Notes: generated from the letters alone by a model not told the origin. A stretch of DNA of 35,443 bases from Candidatus Ornithospirochaeta stercorigallinarum (GCA_018711525.1 DVIF01000005.1:1-35443); one strand, 5' to 3'. Counted from the first letter of the stretch, positions 24,286 to 35,202 are shown. A program made the numbers and translations.

Positions 24286-24747
24286 TCAGAAAGCCATGAG
24301 GCTTGCACTGTCATCAAGCACAACCTCGTCTGCACTCGGGTCTTCTGCTACGATGGCCTGACTTTCGAAATGCTTGAGCCATTCCTCCTGAGGAGAGTCC
24401 GGGTTGGCAACAAGATACGGCAGATAGAGAATCATCATGTTCTCCCCGACTGGGATCTTGATGTCCCTTTCGAACGTGTGCTCTTCCCAGTTGCTGTCCA
24501 CATATGTAACAGCAATCGTATGCCTCTGTCCTGTAACAATCGACTGGTCCCTCATCCTGGAATAGATCGGGAGCCCTTCGACTCCATCAATTGCAACAGT
24601 CACCTCATCAAGGGCTTTGATATCTTCAATCTTGTTGTTATCCAAAAGGATTGTATGCTGCTTGCCGATGAAGAACATCAATACGCCGAGAAGGATTACA
24701 AGAACAATCGCAGCGATGCGGATATAAAATGATCTTCCCATTTTCAT
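24286..24747 (-). CDS. Small membrane-anchored protein of the DUF3798 ABC operon
   Basis: A 153-residue protein with one N-terminal membrane helix (about residues 6-27, IAAIVLVILLGVLMFFIG) followed by an extracytoplasmic domain of roughly 120 residues, rich in beta-prone segments, with an acidic tail. I do not recognise a characterised family. ATG 24,747 has GAGGAGG 7 nt upstream and overlaps the previous permease's stop by one base; a GTG one codon earlier is too close to that site. Tight coupling to the permeases suggests an accessory subunit of the importer, perhaps contacting the binding protein or permeases outside the membrane. Confidence 0.78.
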   Translation of the reverse strand: MKMGRSFYIRIAAIVLVILLGVLMFFIGKQHTILLDNNKIEDIKALDEVTVAIDGVEGLPIYSRMRDQSIVTGQRHTIAVTYVDSNWEEHTFERDIKIPVGENMMILYLPYLVANPDSPQEEWLKHFESQAIVAEDPSADEVVLDDSASLMAF

Positions 24748-25847
24748 CACTCTGCCTCCTCAAGTGCCTTCCTGGCTTCTCTTCTCGTCCTGATTTCATA
24801 AAGGACAAGAGCAAGTGTGATAACGCCATAGCTGACGAATACACGGAAATACTCTCCAAGCTGAGCCTCTCCGATAAGGTTTCTTCCGACAGTAGGTGCG
24901 ATTGTAAACATAGTATGGAAGAGAATGATTCCAATGAAAACATTCTTTATACTTGCCTTATCGACGCTGGCACCACCGACGAGAAGAGCTGCAATTGAGA
25001 ACATACCAATCTGTGAATGGCTGTTATAGGTGTTAAGGGTTCCGATGTTCTGAAGGTAGATGATCATACCGAATCCGGCGAATACCGTTGAGAGTATGAT
25101 TGAGAGGACCCTTGTCTTCTCGACCTTGATACCTGCCTGGCGTGCAACCTCCATATCCTGGCCTACAGCTCTCATATCCTGTCCGAGCTTCGTCTTTCTG
25201 AACCATATGATTACAAGACAGAATACTGCAACAAGGATGAATGTGGCGACAGGAACACTTGCACCGAAGATGTTGAGCGGAATCAGGTTATCAAGACTCT
25301 TTCTCATCGTCTCCAGGTTTACGGTGTTTCTTATACCATAACCACGAGGAAGTACGAGTGCGGAAGATGAGATAGGTATGATGGAGCCCATGAAGTAGAG
25401 TACGACGAGCTGATATACACCATTCATGAAGAATCCGATGATATAGCTCGTAACCATCTCCCTTCCCTTCGCATTGTTCAGGATGGTTCCACAAAGCCAT
25501 CCAAGAAGGATGGAAATAGGTGTGGAGATTATCGCGGCAAGCACCATTGCCGGGATTCCCACTACATTCCAATCAGAAACAAAGATAAGTCCGATCTGTC
25601 CGGCCATGGCTCCGAGAGTCATACCAAAGTTAAGTCCCATACCTGCCATGACAGGAATAAGAAGGGAGAGAACCAGGAAAGAGTTCCTTCCCAGACGGGA
25701 AAGTATCTCATTGAGAAGATATGATCCCGAATATCCTGAAAGAGGAATTCCAATTATACAGATACAGATGAAGAGAATTGGAACAAGATTGTTTATAGCA
25801 AGTTCTTTTACTGAGATCTTATTTTTCATATCTAGATTCCTACTCAT
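24747..25847 (-). CDS. DUF3798-system ABC permease (second permease)
   Basis: A 366-residue RbsC-superfamily permease with about ten helices. Characteristic segments are 'MAGMGLNFGMTLGAMAGQIG' near residue 70 and 'RQAGIKVEKTRVLSIILSTVFAGFGMIIY', the loop likely to face the ATPase. The N-rich GLNFG pattern is shared with the partner permease and differs from typical ribose permeases. AGGAGG precedes the ATG, which overlaps the upstream permease stop by four bases. Confidence 0.9.
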   Translation of the reverse strand: MSRNLDMKNKISVKELAINNLVPILFICICIIGIPLSGYSGSYLLNEILSRLGRNSFLVLSLLIPVMAGMGLNFGMTLGAMAGQIGLIFVSDWNVVGIPAMVLAAIISTPISILLGWLCGTILNNAKGREMVTSYIIGFFMNGVYQLVVLYFMGSIIPISSSALVLPRGYGIRNTVNLETMRKSLDNLIPLNIFGASVPVATFILVAVFCLVIIWFRKTKLGQDMRAVGQDMEVARQAGIKVEKTRVLSIILSTVFAGFGMIIYLQNIGTLNTYNSHSQIGMFSIAALLVGGASVDKASIKNVFIGIILFHTMFTIAPTVGRNLIGEAQLGEYFRVFVSYGVITLALVLYEIRTRREARKALEEAE

Positions 25848-26905
25848 CTTGTGACCTCCTGCTTTCTTGTCAGAGCGTAGAGGATCATACCGTTGGAGAC
25901 GATGATTCTGATAACCTCGGAAACATCCATCTGGATCAATCCGTTCATGACGCTCGGCGTCATAGTAAGGATTCCCTGGAAGAGAAGAGTACCGATGACA
26001 ACGTTGGCGATCGAGGCCTTATTGACGCTTGCTCCACCCAAGAGAACAGCACTTACAGCAGGAAGTGCCATATTGAACGGTCCCATATAAAGCTGAATGA
26101 AACCGAAAGACTGCTCATACACGATGATACCGACAGCTCCAAGCCATGTTGAAAGGATTACGGAAAGAGTCCTCATCCTGTCGACACTTACACCGCTTGC
26201 AGTTGCGAAAATCGGGTTTGAACCTACGGCTGTCATCGCAGTTCCTGTCTTTGTCCTGAGGAAAAGCCAGATCAGGAGGGAAAGGAATGCGAAGAACAGG
26301 ATGGTTCCTGTAGGAATTGCAAGGTGTCCGATCTTGATCCTGAGGAAGTTATCAAGGACTCCAAGATAAGCACCTTCGACGGAGATGGTCGTTCTCAGAC
26401 CGGTTCCAGCATATCCCCACACCATGGTCGGATTATCGTAAGGGAGGAGGAGCCACATGATACACATGAATGCGACAGATGAGAATCCTACATATGTAGC
26501 AATCATCATCTCTCCACCTTTAACCCTGTTCAAAAGTGCTCCATACCCCGCACCGAGGATTATCGCAAACGGAGTTGCAAACACTATGGCCATGAGGAAG
26601 CTTGAGAATCCTGTGAAACCGAACTCAATCGTCATGGTCGCGCCGAGGAGACCTGAGATGATTCCAAGAGGGAGACCGAAGTTAAGGCCACAACCGGAAT
26701 GCACCATCGGAACCATGGCAAGGACAAGGACGGCATTCATTCCGAACCTTGTAAGCATATCTGAGATTCCAGATGCGATGTTTACTTTCGCAAACGGTGC
26801 GATGATAAACAAAAGCACCAGGAAAAGAGTGATAATGAGTCTAGGCAGACCGAATGACTTAATAGCCTGCATCGACTTTTCCTTTAAAGCTGCTGCATCC
26901 ATCAT
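25844..26905 (-). CDS. DUF3798-system ABC permease (first permease)
   Basis: A 353-residue RbsC-superfamily permease paralogous to the next gene: it has HSGCGLNFGLPLGIISGLLG near residue 70 and 'TASGVSVDRMRTLSVILSTWLGAVGIIVY' in the cytoplasmic loop. The two probably form a heterodimer. Tandem ATGs at 26,905 and 26,902 both suit the GGAGG upstream. The gene overlaps the ATPase stop by four bases. Confidence 0.9.
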   Translation of the reverse strand: MMDAAALKEKSMQAIKSFGLPRLIITLFLVLLFIIAPFAKVNIASGISDMLTRFGMNAVLVLAMVPMVHSGCGLNFGLPLGIISGLLGATMTIEFGFTGFSSFLMAIVFATPFAIILGAGYGALLNRVKGGEMMIATYVGFSSVAFMCIMWLLLPYDNPTMVWGYAGTGLRTTISVEGAYLGVLDNFLRIKIGHLAIPTGTILFFAFLSLLIWLFLRTKTGTAMTAVGSNPIFATASGVSVDRMRTLSVILSTWLGAVGIIVYEQSFGFIQLYMGPFNMALPAVSAVLLGGASVNKASIANVVIGTLLFQGILTMTPSVMNGLIQMDVSEVIRIIVSNGMILYALTRKQEVTR

Positions 26906-28521
26906 TCAGCCTCCTTCATCTCACCAAGCATGAGAACTCCGAAGTCCTCACTTGGACGTGTAGCATCAAGAGTACCTGCTATCTTGCCATCATGGACGAC
27001 AGCAATCCTATCACAGATACTTCTAAGCTCTTCAAGCTCACTGGAAATCATGACGATGGTAGTACCATTCTCCTCATTGTATTTCTTAAGGGCTTCAAGA
27101 ACGAGCGCCTTCGCACCTACGTCGATACCACGTGTAGGCTCAGAAACGAAAAGCAGCTTAGGCTTCAGGGCAAAAGCTTTTGCCAGACAGATCTTCTGCT
27201 GGTTTCCACCTGAGAGCTGACGTGCCCTCTGCTTAGAGGATGTGCACTTGATCTGGAGGAGGTCGATGTATTCCTCTGTGACTTTCCTAATCGCGTCGTT
27301 ATCGCGGAACTTCACAGGTCCTATCTTCTTGAGGAAACTCTCATTAACCTGCATGGCCCCGAAGGATACGTTCCACTCAAGGGATTCATCGAGGAGAAGA
27401 CCTACTCCACGTCTGTCTTCCGACACGAATGCGATTCCAGAAGAAAGCGGATCGGATGGGGTGTTGAGCTTTACACTCTTTCCTTCAAACTCGACAGAGC
27501 CGAGTGCATAATAGAGCCCCATGATTCCATTTGGAATGCCGATCTTACCCTGGCCGGCAAGACCTCCAAGTCCGAAAATCTCACCTTTTCTTACTTCAAA
27601 CGAGACATCCTTTACCATCTCACCGGGCATATCTACACGAAGATTGGATACCTTCAGTGCGATTTCATCGCTTATGTGGCTTGTGTCGCGGACGACTCTT
27701 TCCTGTTTTACAGAGCGTCCTACCATCCAAGAAGCGATCTTCTGCACATCGGCTTCCTTCTTGTCCACATGCTTGATGATAAGGCCATCCCTCATGACCA
27801 TGATGGAGTCACAGACATCTATGATCTCCTGAAGGCGGTGGGAGATGAAGATGATTGCAATACCTGCTTCAGAAAGCATCCTCATTGCCTTGAGGAGGGC
27901 AATCGCCTCATGCTCTGAAAGAACCGCTGTCGGTTCATCAAGGACAAGGAGCCTGATGCCTTTGGCATCGGCGCTCTTCTTATCATCCTCCTTGCTCAGC
28001 TCTCTGGCAATCTCCGTGAACTGCTTATAGCCTACAGGGAGTGTTGATATCTTTTTATTTGCATCGAGTTCAACTCCAAGGCGTTCAATCGCCAAAAGAG
28101 CTCTTCTCTGCATTTCTTTCCTATCTACTGTATTGAGCCTTTTTCCAAAAAGCTCACTCATGACACTGTATTTCTCAGGTTCTCTGTTAAGAAGAATGTT
28201 TTCAGAAACCGTGAAATCCGGAATAAGGGAGAACTCCTGATGAACCATTCCGATGCCTTCTTTGATAGCATCTTCAGAAGAACGGAACTCAACTTTCTTT
28301 CCGTCTATGAGAATATCTCCGCCATAACCACCGGTGTCCCTAATCTCATCCATTCCGAAAAGGATTTTCATCAATGTGCTTTTTCCAGCACCATTCTCAC
28401 CGACGAGACCGAGAATCTCGCCTGGATATAGTTTGAAATTGATGTCATTAAGGACTTTGTTACCTGAGAATTCCTTACTGATTCCCTTCATCTCAAGAAG
28501 GGGTGTAGAAGAATATTCCAT
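26902..28521 (-). CDS. DUF3798-system ABC ATPase (two nucleotide-binding domains)
   Basis: A 539-residue RbsA/MglA-like double ATPase. Domain 1 has Walker A GENGAGKST, a modified signature LPVGYKQF and Walker B VLDEPTAVL. Domain 2 has a Walker-A-like GLAGQGK, a canonical signature LSGGNQQK and a Walker B of FVSEPTRGID, in which the Asp is replaced by Ser. One site is likely dominant for hydrolysis. The ATG at 28,521 with AAGGTG upstream is preferred over an upstream TTG at 28,548, which would start inside the intra-operon hairpin region. Followed by two permeases and the membrane-anchored protein in overlapping order. Confidence 0.9.
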   Translation of the reverse strand: MEYSSTPLLEMKGISKEFSGNKVLNDINFKLYPGEILGLVGENGAGKSTLMKILFGMDEIRDTGGYGGDILIDGKKVEFRSSEDAIKEGIGMVHQEFSLIPDFTVSENILLNREPEKYSVMSELFGKRLNTVDRKEMQRRALLAIERLGVELDANKKISTLPVGYKQFTEIARELSKEDDKKSADAKGIRLLVLDEPTAVLSEHEAIALLKAMRMLSEAGIAIIFISHRLQEIIDVCDSIMVMRDGLIIKHVDKKEADVQKIASWMVGRSVKQERVVRDTSHISDEIALKVSNLRVDMPGEMVKDVSFEVRKGEIFGLGGLAGQGKIGIPNGIMGLYYALGSVEFEGKSVKLNTPSDPLSSGIAFVSEDRRGVGLLLDESLEWNVSFGAMQVNESFLKKIGPVKFRDNDAIRKVTEEYIDLLQIKCTSSKQRARQLSGGNQQKICLAKAFALKPKLLFVSEPTRGIDVGAKALVLEALKKYNEENGTTIVMISSELEELRSICDRIAVVHDGKIAGTLDATRPSEDFGVLMLGEMKEAE

Positions 28522-28552
28522 TGCTTTAATCACCTTAATTGCAAACAAAATG

Positions 28553-28579
28553 CAAGGGGAGGCGTCCTCCCTCCCCTTG
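28553..28579 (-). terminator. Intra-operon stem-loop after the DUF3798 binding-protein gene
   Basis: A perfect 10-bp stem CAAGGGGAGG/CCTCCCCTTG with a 7-nt loop, followed on the minus strand by CATTTTGTTTG. It lies between the binding-protein stop and the ATPase start and probably acts as an attenuator or mRNA 3'-end stabiliser. Confidence 0.65.
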
Positions 28580-28603
28580 TGAAAAGTCAGCTATAAAAAT
28601 AGC

Positions 28604-29841
28604 TTACTTAACTGTATAAGCCCACTCAGGAACCTCAACTTCTGTAACGTGCATGTAACCCTTGCCCATTACATATGTATCCTGGTATACGAGGAAGTAG
28701 TTTCTAAGTCCTACGCCTGTATCAGCATTTACATAGTTGGCTCCGTTCCAAGATGCTCCTGGTGAATACTTTGCGAATGCCTTCATGATATCTGCTCTGT
28801 TGAGAAGCTCGCTCTCTCCACGGATAACGTTGATAGCATGCTGTCCGAGACCAGCAGATACTGTGTAGCCGTAGCTGTAAGCCCATGTTCCGAATCTTCC
28901 AGCACCACCGCGCTCTACAACTGTATCCTCAACTCTCTTGAGAATTGCAGGGAAGTCTCCTGATACGTCATCAAGCTGAACACCAAGAGCTCCAGGATAA
29001 CCCATGAGAGGAGAAGGAAGGTCGGCTTCGATGAAGTAACCAGCGCCAAGATTGATCAGCTGGCGGAGAAGCGGCTCTGTATGAGCATCGTTAGTACAGA
29101 AGAATGCTGTATTCGGTCCATACTGCTCGATCCATGTAGGAGTCTGCTCAAGGATGTACTGCTGAGCTCCTGCGATACCAACGTCGCTTGTCGGGTCTGG
29201 AGCGGAAACAGATACGAACTCCATTCCGAGCTCTTCACATGTCCTCTGCATGATTGCAAGACGGCGGCTCATTGTCTCCATTGAGAGGTGACGTGGGAAT
29301 GAGATGTGTACGAATGTATCACATCCAAGCTCATGAGCTGTATTGATGATGAGATATCCACGGGATACGAAGTCGTTGTTACTTACGAGGTCTGCAGCAG
29401 ATGCGATTACAGCAGGATCCTCATGAGCCTCACCTGCGAGACAGATGATGTCAGGTCTTGCTTCCTTGATTCTTCTGAAAGCCTCTGTTGTTCCAGGAAC
29501 AGCCTGGTTTACGATGACAGCCTTCATGAGAGGATCGTCGGCAAGTCCTGCGATAACGCTGATTGTCGTCTCCTGCTCTTCCATGAAGTTGTCAGGATAT
29601 GTCAGGTGCTGGATCATACCACCGTCTGCGACTGAGCCGTACTCTGCGATGAGAGCCTCAGCACCACGAAGGTCGTCCTCGCTCTGGCTGACAGTTCGGT
29701 TACGATTCCGATATGGAATTCCTCAGGAACAGCAGCAGCCTGAGTTTCTGTAGCAGCAGTTGTTGTACTCTCGGAAGCACCACCTGCAAATACAAATGAA
29801 GCTGTGAGGAGTACTAAGAGCAATGCTAATGCTTTTTTCAT
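28604..29841 (-). pseudogene. DUF3798 periplasmic binding protein, interrupted by a one-base frameshift
   Basis: The reading frame from ATG 29,841 (AGGAGG upstream) encodes a signal peptide ending FVFAGGASES and a Thr/Ala linker, then runs out of frame after HIGIVTEL. The continuation is in the -1 frame. Adding one C beside 29,697 on the plus strand (one G in the coding strand) restores IVTGTVSQSEDDLRGAEALI, leading into the rest of a roughly 412-residue protein. Downstream segments such as TYPDNFMEEQETTI, AVPGTTEAFRRIKEARPD and 'HISFPRHLSMETMSRR' match the DUF3798 family as I know it, a periplasmic-binding-protein-like family without an assigned ligand. All other operon genes are intact, so a sequencing error or recent mutation are both possible. 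Confidence 0.88.
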
Positions 29842-29877
29842 TTAATTCCTCCTAAATTAAATCAGATATTCTATCTT

Positions 29878-29986: not shown

Positions 29987-30059
29987 GATTTTTCTCGTTA
30001 TATTACAACAATATATTTTATTTACTATTTAATTTATCGTTGCAAAATGTATTTTCAAA

Positions 30060-30089
30060 GGAGGAGTCCGTCATGCAGGACGGTCCTCC
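30060..30089 (-). terminator. Terminator hairpin after the M20 peptidase gene
   Basis: On the minus strand GGAGGA-CCGTC pairs with GACGG-TCCTCC (2-nt bulge, 6-nt loop), 10 bp after the peptidase stop. The tail CTTTGAAAATAC is only weakly T-rich, so strength is uncertain. Confidence 0.55.
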
Positions 30090-30098
30090 ACTGAAAAC

Positions 30099-31409
30099 CT
30101 ATTTATACAAGTCTTTTATTATCTTCTGATAGAAAAGGACACCCTTTTCAAGGCAGGAGATTGATATGTTCTCATCCAATCCATGTATGCTCTGATACTG
30201 CTGTTCGTTTATCTCCAGGGGAGCGAAACGTATTACGTTCTCCGAAATCCTCGAGTAGTTCCTTCCATCCGTTCCACCTGTCATGGCATACGGACAGGTT
30301 ATGACATCGGGAAAGACCTCATGTACAGCCTCTTCAACGAATCTGAAAGCAGTTCCATCATGATCCACGACAGGACAGGCGTAATGCTTCATTATGACCT
30401 CGACATCTATATCGTATTTGGAAGCGATCGCCCTGAGCTTGTTTTCCGTGTAATCGGCATCCTCATGATGGATTACACGGCTGTTGCCGGTGACATACGC
30501 CCTCTCAGGAAGGACATTCAATCCGTTGGAGCCTCCTGCGGTTGTAAAAGCGAGGGTTGTTTTGATCATTGCAGTAGCAAGCAGGTTCATCCTTGGAAGG
30601 ACTCTGTTGAGCACTGGAGAGAGAAGTTTTGCATGGCGCAGAGCAAACCCCATCGCACCGGGGGTGTGCCTTCCCAGACGTCGGAACATCTCTATCGTCG
30701 TGTCGTTCATCTTCGCTTTGAACGGATCATGCCTTTCGATATCAGCCATGAACTTTCCAAGCCTTACAAGAGGAGTGTTCTTTCCAGGAGCAGATGCATG
30801 CCCTCCCTTTCCTTTTGCTACGAAACGGAAATTGCATGTACCCTTCTCAAGCGTCCCCATCATGGCAAAACGCCCTTTTGCACCTTTGAGCGGCTCGGAT
30901 TTTATCATCCCCCCTTCATCAAGGACTAAAAGAGGCTTGATCCCCCTCTCATCAAGATAATCCACAGCCATCTCAGCCCCCGGGCCTGAAGTCTCTTCGT
31001 TGTTTGAGGATGAGATATATACATCCATCTCAGGCACATACCCCGACTCTATCAGACGCTCACATGCTTCAAATATCGTACAAAGGGACCCCTTTGTATC
31101 GACAGTCCCGCGCCCCCAGACGCATCCTTCCGCGATATCTCCTGAGAACGGACCATGCTTCCATTCTCCTGTCGCCTCGACAACATCCTGATGACTCATC
31201 AGCACCAGAGGACGCTTTGAGCTGTCCTTCCCCTTCCACCTGAGAAGAAGCGCACCATCGAAAGAGTTGAATTCCACCGCGCCGAATACAGCGGGGAAAA
31301 GTTCTTTCAGTTTCGCCTGGAAACGCTCGAACTTCTCCTCGTTGTATTTTCCTATCTCACTGACAGTCTCTATCTGTATCATCTGAGAGAGCTTTTCTTC
31401 TATTTTCAT
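30099..31409 (-). CDS. M20-family metallopeptidase (carboxypeptidase S / PM20D1-like)
   Basis: A 436-residue two-zinc peptidase or amidohydrolase. The metal ligands are His73 and Asp75 (SHQDVVE), Asp104 (GRGTVDTKG), and the catalytic Glu138-Glu139 (NNEETSGPG); the VLDEGG segment and the late GGTDGRNY stretch are typical of the carboxypeptidase S/PM20D1 branch, which cleaves dipeptides or N-acyl amino acids. A dimerisation domain lies in the middle. There is no signal peptide, so it acts in the cytoplasm. ATG 31,409 has AGGTGG 8 nt upstream and is preferred to a GTG four codons earlier. It ends an operon with two membrane proteins, suggesting it processes what they import. Confidence 0.88.
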   Translation of the reverse strand: MKIEEKLSQMIQIETVSEIGKYNEEKFERFQAKLKELFPAVFGAVEFNSFDGALLLRWKGKDSSKRPLVLMSHQDVVEATGEWKHGPFSGDIAEGCVWGRGTVDTKGSLCTIFEACERLIESGYVPEMDVYISSSNNEETSGPGAEMAVDYLDERGIKPLLVLDEGGMIKSEPLKGAKGRFAMMGTLEKGTCNFRFVAKGKGGHASAPGKNTPLVRLGKFMADIERHDPFKAKMNDTTIEMFRRLGRHTPGAMGFALRHAKLLSPVLNRVLPRMNLLATAMIKTTLAFTTAGGSNGLNVLPERAYVTGNSRVIHHEDADYTENKLRAIASKYDIDVEVIMKHYACPVVDHDGTAFRFVEEAVHEVFPDVITCPYAMTGGTDGRNYSRISENVIRFAPLEINEQQYQSIHGLDENISISCLEKGVLFYQKIIKDLYK

Positions 31410-31421
31410 TTCCAATACCAC

Positions 31422-32099
31422 CTATTTCAAAATATGTTTTTTCCAGAGAATCCATGACAGCCCGATACTCAAGGCACCGCATGCGATGATCATTATGCTT
31501 GTCTGATTCATCAGAGACGGAACGATAATGCATATCAGAGTCATGAAAGAAAGAGGAAGCACCGTCAGTCGGAGGCTCTTCCTGAAATACTGGTATCCAA
31601 GAGCTCCGAAGAGCGCTGGAAGGACATTGTCGAATGCAGGACGGAGCACAGGATTCTCCAGAACCGGGGTCAGAGGAATCAGCAGAAGTACCCCTATGAA
31701 TATCACGACCATTGTGACAAGGGATGATGTTGCGACCGAAAGCGTCGATATGATCTCATTCTCCTTGCTTCCAACTTCAGCCTGTGCGATCTCCCGTGCA
31801 TTCGCAGCACATGGCAGCTTCAGGTTCGTGATGTTACCCGTTATGAACGAAAGATAGCTGGCACCGGGGCCAAGCAAAGGAACATATATCAGGTATTCAA
31901 CGATGCATGACGGAACATAGACGATCAGGACAGACCAGATAGCACTGAGAAAACCATTCCATTCGATTTCTGCATCAAGGAAATATGCAAAGAGAAAAGG
32001 AGCAGAAAGCAGCATCACAGCACCGATTGAGAGTCCAATGCGACCCATGCGATGCACGGAATCCGTATATTTTGAATAATCAAAGACTTCTTTTTCCAT
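31422..32099 (-). CDS. Uncharacterised polytopic membrane protein (partner of the DUF5058 protein)
   Basis: A 225-residue integral membrane protein with about six helices. A conserved-looking loop, 'GPGASYLSFITGNITNLKLP', lies between the helices and has the glycine/proline/asparagine character of a transport pathway. I do not recognise a characterised family. ATG 32,099 has AGGAGG 5 nt upstream; a GTG one codon earlier is too close to it. It starts 9 bp after the DUF5058 gene and is followed by the M20 peptidase gene, so a two-subunit transporter with a dedicated hydrolase is my inference. Confidence 0.75.
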   Translation of the reverse strand: MEKEVFDYSKYTDSVHRMGRIGLSIGAVMLLSAPFLFAYFLDAEIEWNGFLSAIWSVLIVYVPSCIVEYLIYVPLLGPGASYLSFITGNITNLKLPCAANAREIAQAEVGSKENEIISTLSVATSSLVTMVVIFIGVLLLIPLTPVLENPVLRPAFDNVLPALFGALGYQYFRKSLRLTVLPLSFMTLICIIVPSLMNQTSIMIIACGALSIGLSWILWKKHILK

Positions 32100-32108
32100 C
32101 ACATCCTC

Positions 32109-32834
32109 CTAAACGAACATCGACACCACGACAGCTCCAATCATCGCAAGGAGCATCGACAAGGCAAGAGAGAAGTTCTCAAACACCTTGTGCCTCCTGC
32201 TCACCAACTCGAAGAGGGCCATGAAAAGGGATGCCACTATGACAGTTGTGACAGGCACAAGATTCACAGATACGAACGCCTCTGCTATATACGAGCCGAC
32301 AAAAGTCGAACAGAGCCCTATCATCATGGCGACCATGGCCCATGATGCGTATCCTCCTCCACTGGTGTTGCTCTTCCTTCCTATCGCAAGTTTCGATGAA
32401 TACTTCTTCATCGTGAAAATCGACAGCAGACAGCCCCATATTATGCCTACGGTCATGACCAGCAATATAGTTGAAAGAGCAGAGACATCAAGGGATGACG
32501 AATTGAGGCTGAGGCCCATGCTGTTTGCGGCGATTTCCGCGACAGTCGCCTCATACTGCAGGTTGCCGATGACTGAGAGCCTGAGCCATGATGCGGGGAT
32601 TCCAAGGGAGCCGGAAAGGGCTATGACTCCCAGGAGTATGGAAACAGATGGAAGAACGGTGAAAGTGGCGGAACTCGTTATGGCTCGCCTGAGAACCCTC
32701 CTGTCCATTCCTATCTTTATACCCGCCCTGTAGCTTCTTACGATGAAAAGCACGCACAAGAGTGCTATAAAAAGGAGTATACCTCCAACGATTAGATAAA
32801 GTGGCAATGAATTTGCCGCTTCAATATATGGCAT
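32109..32834 (-). CDS. DUF5058-family membrane protein
   Basis: A 241-residue membrane protein with about six to seven helices. The N-terminal helix is followed by a basic loop (RSYRAGIKIGMDRRVLRRAI) and a hydrophobic 'FTVLPSVSILLGVIALSGSLGIPASWLRLSVIG' region that I recognise as the DUF5058 family, of unknown function. GGAGG lies 6 nt before the ATG. It is upstream of the second membrane protein and the M20 peptidase and 29 bp after the alcohol dehydrogenase gene, so all four may be one transcript. Confidence 0.78.
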   Translation of the reverse strand: MPYIEAANSLPLYLIVGGILLFIALLCVLFIVRSYRAGIKIGMDRRVLRRAITSSATFTVLPSVSILLGVIALSGSLGIPASWLRLSVIGNLQYEATVAEIAANSMGLSLNSSSLDVSALSTILLVMTVGIIWGCLLSIFTMKKYSSKLAIGRKSNTSGGGYASWAMVAMMIGLCSTFVGSYIAEAFVSVNLVPVTTVIVASLFMALFELVSRRHKVFENFSLALSMLLAMIGAVVVSMFV

Positions 32835-32863
32835 AATAGTCCTCCATAAATGATGAGATTATA

Positions 32864-33907
32864 TTAATCATTCGGATGTACGACAACCTTTATGGAATCA
32901 GAGGACATCTGCATCCTTATCGCATCCTCAAGTCTTTCTTTCGGATAGACATGTGTGATAAGAGGTTCAACCCTGATCCTTCCGCTGTTTATGAGGTTGA
33001 CTGCCCTCTGATACGTATCCGGGTTTATCATGGAGCCCACTATCTTAAGTTCCTTCTTATAGACATCAAACAAAGGAAGCTCTAATTTCGCATCGACTTT
33101 CGGAACACTGAAAAAGAGGATCGTCCCTCCTGTGTCCGCAGATGAGATTGCGTCCCGGGCGGCAGAAGGGCTGCCGACACACTCAACGACCTTATCAACA
33201 CCATCACGGCCTGTCATCTTCCTTATTTCCTCTGAAAGGTCTGAATTCACAGGGTCGATCACATAATCGATGCCTAATGAAAGAGCAATCTCCCTTCTCT
33301 TCTCCACAGGTTCGGAAACCAAAACGGTATCAGCCCCTGAGATTTTCATCACCTGTGCCATCATAAGGCCGATCGTACCGCCTCCGATGATGAGCACGCT
33401 CTCCCCGCTTTTCATATCTGCCAGGTCAACCCCATGAAGAACACAGGAAATAGGCTCCGTCATAGCCCCGATATCGAAAGGAATATCATCATTGAGTTTG
33501 AAACACTGGGTATTAGGGCAGATTGAATACTCTGCGAAACCACCGTCGACGTTCACCCCCAGAGCGAAAAGATTCTCACAGTTCTGCTTATGCCCCATCC
33601 TGCATGGACGGCACTTTCCGCAGTATATGTTTGGATCCACAGTCACATGATCCCCTACCTTCACATTTTGGACTGAAGCACCAATCTTCTCGACAACTCC
33701 CGAGTATTCATGACCAAGGACGACGGGAGGAGTCACTTCAGCAGAGTCTTTCTCCCCCAGATATATATGAACATCCGTACCGCATATTCCAGCAGCCATG
33801 TTTTTCACCAGGACATCATGCTCCCCGAGTAAAAGACCAAGGTCTCCCATCTCCCGTACTTCAAACTTCCTATCACTATCTGAACCCAAAAAGAATGTAC
33901 CTTTCAT
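32864..33907 (-). CDS. Zinc-dependent medium-chain alcohol/polyol dehydrogenase
   Basis: A 347-residue NAD(P)-dependent dehydrogenase of the sorbitol/threonine dehydrogenase type. Catalytic zinc ligands are Cys42 (GICGTD) and His66-Glu67 (GHE). The structural zinc cysteines are 96, 99, 102 and 110 (CGKCRPC...C). The Rossmann motif is IIGGGTIGL. The frame is open to 33,952, overlapping the upstream gene, but ATG 33,907 with GGGGAGG just before it gives the usual family N-terminus and length. Substrate is probably a polyol or secondary alcohol; which one is not evident. Confidence 0.88.
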   Translation of the reverse strand: MKGTFFLGSDSDRKFEVREMGDLGLLLGEHDVLVKNMAAGICGTDVHIYLGEKDSAEVTPPVVLGHEYSGVVEKIGASVQNVKVGDHVTVDPNIYCGKCRPCRMGHKQNCENLFALGVNVDGGFAEYSICPNTQCFKLNDDIPFDIGAMTEPISCVLHGVDLADMKSGESVLIIGGGTIGLMMAQVMKISGADTVLVSEPVEKRREIALSLGIDYVIDPVNSDLSEEIRKMTGRDGVDKVVECVGSPSAARDAISSADTGGTILFFSVPKVDAKLELPLFDVYKKELKIVGSMINPDTYQRAVNLINSGRIRVEPLITHVYPKERLEDAIRMQMSSDSIKVVVHPND

Positions 33908-33948
33908 AATCCTCCCCACGTTTTCATCCATGAATGACGAATACTTGT

Positions 33949-35151
33949 TCATTCAAAAGTTTCAACTCTAATAATCCTATCACTCCACAGTTCTTCAAGA
34001 AACGTTTCAAACGGGTAGATATAGATTCCATCTTCTGTCTTCCTCTTATGTCCTTCTCTGCAGACGACAATATATTTTCGGCAGGAATTCTCATCTTTTA
34101 ATGCTCTAAGACCTCTTAAATCCTTTTTCTCATTTATAAGCTTTGTTGTTTTTACTTCTATAGCAACTTGATCCTTGTAAACAAAATCCACTTCCAACCC
34201 GCTTTGTGTCCGCCAATAAAACAATCCCCTGTTTCTGTAATCAGCACCGTTATAATCAAGATATGCAACCAATTCGTGGCAAATATAGTGTTCAAAGAAT
34301 TTCCCATACTCACTGGTATTTTCACTGGGAGGGGCCATGTTCAATATCGCCCTTAGCACACCAACATCAAAAAGATAATACTTTGATATGACCATTGCTT
34401 TTCTTTTCTTTGTTGCTGTAAAGGCAGGAATTTCACTTCCAACAAGCATATCTGTAAGTATTGAATACCAAGCCTTGATTGAATTCTGAGACATACCGAC
34501 ATCATTTGCAATATTGCTATAGTTTATCTGTTCACCTGATGAAATAGCGGCAAAAAGCAGAAAATGGGAGAAAGCAGGAATATTTCTGACACAACCTTCC
34601 GACTGCACTTGAGTTAAAAGGTAACTTGTCCAGTAGCTTGTAAGCAATTTCCCCGGTCTTGAAGATAGATACATTTGAGGCAGAAGCCCTGTTCTGAAAA
34701 CATGTTCCAGAGAGTAATCGATATCCTTTATCTCCGGCCACACAAGAGGATGGAAAATAAATTCCCCTGCTCTACCTCCTAACATATCAGCCCCTGAACG
34801 TATTAGATTCCTTACTCCGGACCCCGTAAGAAGAAAAGTAAAATCAGTAGATTCCATCAACCTATGGACTTCACTCAACAACGATGGAACAAGCTGAATT
34901 TCATCGATTACAACCAATCCTTTGTCCTTGTCCAAAGCTCTGATTTCATCAACAAGAATACCAGGATTCCGACTAAGCCTGGTACGTTCACCCGTATCAA
35001 GCAAATCAATGAGGAGATCGATTTTACTCTTCATCTGTCTTGTAAGGTAACTAGTCTTGCCCGTCTGTCTAGCACCAAACAAAAACACGGACTGTATGCC
35101 AAGTGCTTTTGATATATCAATTTTTCTTTGTATATAAATATAGTTTTTCAT
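33949..35151 (-). CDS. AAA ATPase with C-terminal DUF4143 (nuclease-like) domain
   Basis: A 400-residue P-loop protein of the widespread AAA_14/DUF4143 family, of unknown function. Walker A is GARQTGKT (residues 26-33), Walker B VVIDEI (about 80-85), and the sensor-like LLTGSGVRN follows. The C-terminal part has a winged-helix-like stretch and then 'GLEVDFVYKDQVAIEVKTTK', the Asp...Glu-x-Lys pattern of PD-(D/E)xK-fold domains. ATG 35,151 has AGGAAAG upstream; the longer open frame to 35,202 overlaps the promoter. Copies of this family are often mobile or scattered, fitting its position beside an insertion-sequence remnant. Confidence 0.85.
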   Translation of the reverse strand: MKNYIYIQRKIDISKALGIQSVFLFGARQTGKTSYLTRQMKSKIDLLIDLLDTGERTRLSRNPGILVDEIRALDKDKGLVVIDEIQLVPSLLSEVHRLMESTDFTFLLTGSGVRNLIRSGADMLGGRAGEFIFHPLVWPEIKDIDYSLEHVFRTGLLPQMYLSSRPGKLLTSYWTSYLLTQVQSEGCVRNIPAFSHFLLFAAISSGEQINYSNIANDVGMSQNSIKAWYSILTDMLVGSEIPAFTATKKRKAMVISKYYLFDVGVLRAILNMAPPSENTSEYGKFFEHYICHELVAYLDYNGADYRNRGLFYWRTQSGLEVDFVYKDQVAIEVKTTKLINEKKDLRGLRALKDENSCRKYIVVCREGHKRKTEDGIYIYPFETFLEELWSDRIIRVETFE

Positions 35152-35174
35152 TAATTCTTTCCTATACAAAGAAT

Positions 35175-35202
35175 ATAATACTTTACTACTGCGAAAAATC
35201 AA
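35175..35202 (-). promoter_or_regulatory. Promoter of the AAA/DUF4143 ATPase gene
   Basis: On the minus strand TTGATT (35,197-35,202) and TATTAT (35,175-35,180) are spaced by 16 nt. The -35 lies inside the first 31-bp repeat, so anything binding the repeats would control this gene. Confidence 0.5.

Follow-up and report, generated by a model that had tools for sequence, protein, structure and literature searches.

What do two small, dissimilar membrane proteins do when their genes stand side by side directly ahead of a metallopeptidase gene? The question is raised by a locus of Candidatus Ornithospirochaeta stercorigallinarum (GCA_018711525.1 DVIF01000005.1:1-35443; hereafter the window, 35,443 nucleotides in all), for which an initial annotation, made from the sequence alone, had suggested that the membrane pair takes up a dipeptide or N-acyl amino acid and that an M20-family enzyme cleaves it inside the cell. 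By comparing the locus with its counterparts in other genomes, we found that the membrane genes, here termed A and B, are a real, widespread and unrecognised two-gene module, which carries a strong functional hint: A and B probably act as a two-subunit importer of dipeptides, N-acyl amino acids or similar compounds that are hydrolysed in the cytoplasm. The features on which the argument turns are as follows:

32109..32834, minus strand: A, a DUF5058 (PF16481) polytopic membrane protein of 241 amino acids, proposed transporter subunit 1
31422..32102, minus strand: B, a polytopic membrane protein of 226 amino acids (GTG start; 225 from an alternative ATG at 32099, right after the GTG) without Pfam or NCBIfam family, proposed transporter subunit 2
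30099..31409, minus strand: M20 metallohydrolase of the carboxypeptidase S (CPS) / PRK08262 type, 436 amino acids, ATG start, with PF01546 and PF07687
32100..32111, minus strand: overlap of the A stop codon and the B Shine-Dalgarno sequence (TAGGAGG), read from the sequence

The open reading frames (ORFs) and Pfam domains confirm that the membrane pair lies directly ahead of the M20 gene, and the 9 bp first given for the A-B gap is correct when counted from the ATG of B (6 nt from the GTG); B and the M20 gene are 12 nt apart. The stop codon of A falls inside the Shine-Dalgarno sequence of B (TAGGAGGATGTGATG), which suggests that the translation of A and B is coupled.

A and B form one strict genetic unit. 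First, PF16481 exceeds its cut-off in 47 of the 393 Spirochaetota genomes of our phylum sample and in 16 of 60 near relatives, and B is directly downstream of A in all 44 Spirochaetota A loci that were fetched. Second, a search with the B alignment through 84,980 species genomes yielded at least 577 relatives; among the best 80 loci, which were inspected and lie in other genomes, 78 have A directly upstream of B on the same strand, and the other two end at a contig edge. Third, of 291 Clostridia genomes, 27 have A above the cut-off and all of these contain B as well; four further genomes, with B alone, hold broken fragments or weak matches. Separate occurrence of the two genes, sought in Spirochaetota, in the best 80 B loci and in the 291 Clostridia, was not found. 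The arrangement is thus far beyond chance, since A and B stand together at every locus where adjacency could be judged, and the genes are as they had been described. The A-B gap is usually about 10-15 nt, and the sequence distances of A and B correlate (r = 0.94 over 110 pairs, without species control), as expected of genes that are inherited together. Gene fusions of A and B were also sought, the long ORFs in L065 and L104 being mere upstream read-through.

Concerning the proteins themselves, A belongs to DUF5058, a Pfam entry without assigned function, which it matches over model positions 1-222 of 222 (1.1e-60; 205.4 bits for a cut-off of 28.2). B exceeds the cut-off of no Pfam family and finds no match in NCBIfam. 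The earlier mention of two membrane families holds for A, as DUF5058; the libraries searched contain no model for B. Both proteins possess polar or charged invariant residues: P62, G78, R85, G90, E95, M127 and G173 are invariant in A, the conserved central segment of which reads LGxPxxWxRLSVIGxxxYE, and E69, P75, G78, G89, N90 and P97 are invariant in B, with the central motif LGxGGxYLxFxTGNxxNLKxP. Weak Clostridia matches were taken as chance. Those to PF16481 cover only part of the model (mostly its C-terminal half) and come from other membrane proteins, two inspected ones looking like UppP; one of those to B is a MATE-like protein.

The membrane pair is recurrently linked to a hydrolase. 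A same-strand hydrolase gene touches A-B in 102 of the 110 distinct pairs with readable flanks (of 116 distinct pairs with A, six were not judged: L065, L071, L072, L080 and L228, in which the sequence is short, and L101, which is masked). The commonest partner is a CPS-like M20 enzyme. Two kinds of M20D enzyme also occur, the first with YxeP, IAA-amino acid hydrolase and N-acyl-glutamine aminoacylase as nearest solved relatives, the second with HmrA, PM20D2 and AbgB. The other partners are an ArgE/DapE deacylase, a PepT-like enzyme, an M19 dipeptidase, a glutaminase, an S58 D-/beta-aminopeptidase, an Amidohydro_1 protein (closest model: Xaa-Pro dipeptidase) and Amidohydro_3 proteins. Many of these families have mutually unrelated folds; their common trait is the cleavage of small amides of amino acids. 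At one locus (L230:2725-8954, plus strand), A-B is flanked by an AstE/AspA-like deacylase upstream and an M20D enzyme downstream, with a sigma-54 activator gene before them. Two supposed orphans, L048 and L059, were rejected as such, an M20 gene being present beyond the distance limit first used.

The partner types follow the phylogeny of B. On the B tree, the ten partner types require 13 changes (the minimum in 200 shuffles was 22), and CPS versus any other type requires only 2; when only the non-CPS rows are considered, the order of the types is not significant (11 changes, a number as low in 13 of 200 shuffles). The B clades other than the CPS-partnered ones have other M20 subfamilies or unrelated peptidases or amidases. 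These changes indicate that A-B was kept through several replacements of the enzyme, always by a further amide hydrolase; the association of membrane pair and hydrolase survives the swap to unrelated enzymes.

Where does cleavage take place, and of what? The window M20 enzyme possesses both expected domains, Peptidase_M20 (PF01546, 2.3e-25) and M20_dimer (PF07687, 7.5e-10). The nearest NCBIfam models are those of PRK08262 (5.5e-72); its 226-243 bits fall below every one of their cut-offs (503-825), and judged by sequence the enzyme is a relative of the PRK08262 type, not a named equivalog. The metal and catalytic residues H77, D79, D108, E142, E143, D168 and H413 (numbered in a 440-residue frame) are invariant in 67 of 67 CPS-type partners, and the di-metal site and catalytic glutamate are complete in the window enzyme. 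It shares these domains and all metal and catalytic residues with the carboxypeptidase S / PM20D1 branch of M20. PM20D1 and yeast CPS are secreted or luminal, whereas the cassette enzymes are predicted to be either free in the cytoplasm or held at the inner membrane face. No signal, anchor or N-terminal helix was found in the window enzyme, which is predicted to be cytoplasmic. A single N-terminal hydrophobic helix occurs in 50 of the 67 full-length CPS-type partners; the 17 without it are the Spirochaete group and L093. This helix typically begins at residue 1, with no positive charge ahead of it and R-T/A-x-x-F-x-P-K behind it. Of the 50 anchored enzymes, 44 have more positive charge behind the helix than ahead of it, 3 have equal charge on both sides and 3 have more ahead of it, the mechanically called starts of the last three being probably over-extended. 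By the positive-inside rule, a rule of thumb, this distribution supports a catalytic domain facing the cytoplasm. The anchors of the M20 partners thus support the idea of cleavage inside the cell, and with the enzyme inside, the substrate must cross the membrane before being cut, which provides a role for A-B. As to this substrate, what is known of carboxypeptidase S and PM20D1 suggests that the window enzyme may act on N-acyl amino acids, or on dipeptides whose N-terminal residue is small or blocked.

The same data bear on another role for A-B, in which the pair would not transport at all but would serve the adjacent hydrolase as a platform in the membrane or as a maturation factor. The tight linkage to hydrolases and the membrane anchoring of many Clostridial partners would fit such a role. 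However, the anchored enzymes bring their own helix, some pairs have no hydrolase, and a shared need for maturation is improbable because the partner folds are unrelated; we regard this explanation as very unlikely.

Returning to the importer, we propose the following pathway. A and B would be the obligatory subunits of one heteromeric secondary transporter, physically joined, which would import a small amide-linked amino acid derivative (a dipeptide, an N-acyl amino acid or a similar conjugate) into the cytoplasm. This cargo would be handed to the adjacent or tethered hydrolase (the CPS-type M20 in the window), which would cut the amide and thereby set amino acids free for catabolism. In most Clostridia, the N-terminal helix would tether the CPS-type enzyme to the inner membrane face and keep it beside the transporter, and lineages would retune the same transporter by swapping the enzyme. 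The conserved unit, examined for an ABC importer, consists of A, B and the hydrolase, without ATPase or binding-protein genes; because no ATPase is linked, the energy source is probably an ion gradient. Comparative data thus give strong support to the unit of membrane pair and hydrolase in the original proposal, and it is the physical complex, the transport, its direction, its substrate and its energy source that we infer.

Several points weigh against the proposal. DUF5058 or PF16481 is named in no paper that we found in the open-access literature (work outside that set is possible), and we know of no transport assay for A or B. A Foldseek comparison of the two weak structural models described below with the PDB gave no credible match (best E of 0.83 and 2.9), and hence no known transporter fold. 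The cytoplasmic orientation of the anchored enzymes leans on a rule of thumb. Eight of the 110 pairs (about 7%) have no adjacent hydrolase, and a complete genome with two A-B pairs (L245:1684-5057) has one of them directly after gyrB, near contig position 1, without a hydrolase beside it. Among pairs of this sort, close relatives of L245 (e.g., L002) also have one without an M20 gene after B; in L061, L062 and L066 (Fournierella-type), a gene resembling that of a CCA-adding tRNA nucleotidyltransferase (named by eye) follows A-B in place of a hydrolase; and the gene right after B in L217 (8139-9524, plus strand) encodes a polytopic membrane protein without Pfam family, not a hydrolase.

Lastly, export is compatible with gene order alone, which gives no direction: the hydrolase would make a product inside the cell, perhaps by running in the synthetic direction, as has been described for PM20D1 of mammals, and A-B would pump this product out. 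Yet the swapped partners (prolidase-like, M19, S58, glutaminase, ArgE/DapE and PepT-like) are typically degradative, and most of the hosts found are anaerobes of gut and sediment, which probably subsist on amino acids, so that we consider an exporter unlikely.

The proposed importer and hydrolase can be compared with two systems of E. coli, to which the cassette is analogous without being a member of either. First, in abgT-abgB-abgA (a p-aminobenzoyl-glutamate symporter and an M20D hydrolase), a transporter gene is likewise beside M20-family amidohydrolase genes, and the M20D partner of some A-B pairs also matches the solved AbgB-type protein 3io1. However, AbgT is one large protein (about 508 residues), whereas A and B are two small, unrelated-looking proteins with no Pfam match to the AbgT family at E <= 1, and their M20D partner is closer to HmrA and PM20D2 than to AbgB. 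Second, in yjiH-yjiG-iadA of E. coli K-12 (L125:8355-10681), two small membrane proteins are followed by an isoaspartyl dipeptidase, on one strand and with genes that overlap or nearly touch, similarly to the cassette. YjiH and YjiG may be a transporter for isoaspartyl dipeptides; no function or transporter role for them was found in the open-access literature.

This second likeness raises the question of ancestry, namely whether A-B is a divergent branch of the Gate (nucleoside recognition) superfamily, in the group of YjiH and YjiG, a descent that would be compatible with an importer. The idea had been prompted by eye and by the yjiHG-iadA layout, which equals that of the cassette, and a local alignment of B with YjiH around PLLGxPG/ANLQN has P of about 0.02-0.03. 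However, YjiH and YjiG match Gate (PF07670), whereas A and B do not at E <= 1, and 12 Gate proteins score no better than 106 unrelated membrane-like ORFs or reversed sequences. We find Gate ancestry doubtful, and as the similarity does not exceed that of the controls, we assign A to DUF5058 and B to a family without a name, neither with Gate membership.

The AlphaFold models of A and B, built from 19-sequence alignments, are both weak (A: pLDDT 69, pTM 0.47; B: pLDDT 74, pTM 0.53), and in these weak models the helix order of the two proteins is similar. A sequence search of the PDB gave nothing for A; the weak MerF matches of B are confined to one hydrophobic stretch and were taken as chance. 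An in-register alignment of the A and B profiles spans 83 columns around their conserved segments (hhalign P of 0.03), a score reached by 3 of 120 control profiles (block-shuffled, or reversed or rotated); the similarity is suggestive, and homology is not claimed. Tentatively, and with less confidence than we place in the importer, A and B could be diverged copies of one ancestor that form a heterodimeric secondary transporter of an undescribed fold class for amino acid amides. To this general uptake chassis, bacteria would have coupled cytoplasmic hydrolases of several unrelated folds, and the CPS-type enzyme would dock beside it, on the inner side of the membrane.

The neighbourhood of the cassette in the window comprises the following features:

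33949-35202, minus strand: AAA_14/DUF4143 ATPase gene, first in transcription order, with a 4-base overlap with the alcohol dehydrogenase (ADH) start
32864..33952, minus strand: threonine-dehydrogenase-like zinc ADH (Pfam ADH_N and ADH_zinc_N; NCBIfam tdh below cut-off)
30051..30098, minus strand: strong hairpin (-24.2 kcal/mol), a possible terminator between the M20 gene and the DUF3798/ABC genes

Transcription on the minus strand runs from AAA_14/DUF4143 through ADH, A and B to the M20 hydrolase, with 29 nt between ADH and A. An ADH gene is indeed just upstream of the pair, with its ORF beginning at 33952, the start first assigned (33907) being an internal ATG. It adjoins A-B solely in the closest relatives and is a local neighbour, not part of the conserved unit. 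A relative of the AAA_14/DUF4143 gene is in pieces in L046. The hairpin 3' of the M20 gene stands out against shuffles (z of -5.4); it lacks a clean U-run and is absent from the terminator scan. Promoter-like sites in the region show no excess over shuffles. Beyond the hairpin, downstream of the cassette, lie genes for a DUF3798 protein, an RbsA-like ABC ATPase and two permeases (24747-29842, minus strand). The DUF3798 gene (28604-29842, minus strand) has a frame change near 29690 that parts its signal-peptide start (ATG near 29841) from the rest, either an assembly error or a recent mutation; the gene is open throughout in L046 and L047. This operon borders the conserved unit in just two settings, the group to which the window belongs and L248 (6688-13351), from another family of the phylum, where it directly follows A-B with no M20 gene, a link that is unexplained.

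The cassette is of a known kind, a transporter with an intracellular amidohydrolase; the transporter itself could represent a new class. If the proposal is true, it would assign a function to DUF5058 as well as to a second family that lacks any model, and would add a two-subunit type of transporter for the uptake of peptides and acyl-amino acids. As the enzyme of each lineage hints at the substrate, the hypothesis is testable substrate by substrate. About one in ten of the Spirochaetota and Clostridia genomes sampled, many of them from gut or rumen, carries A and B, and the finding bears on how gut anaerobes may use unusual dipeptides and N-acyl amino acids, compounds that in some cases act as signals in the host.

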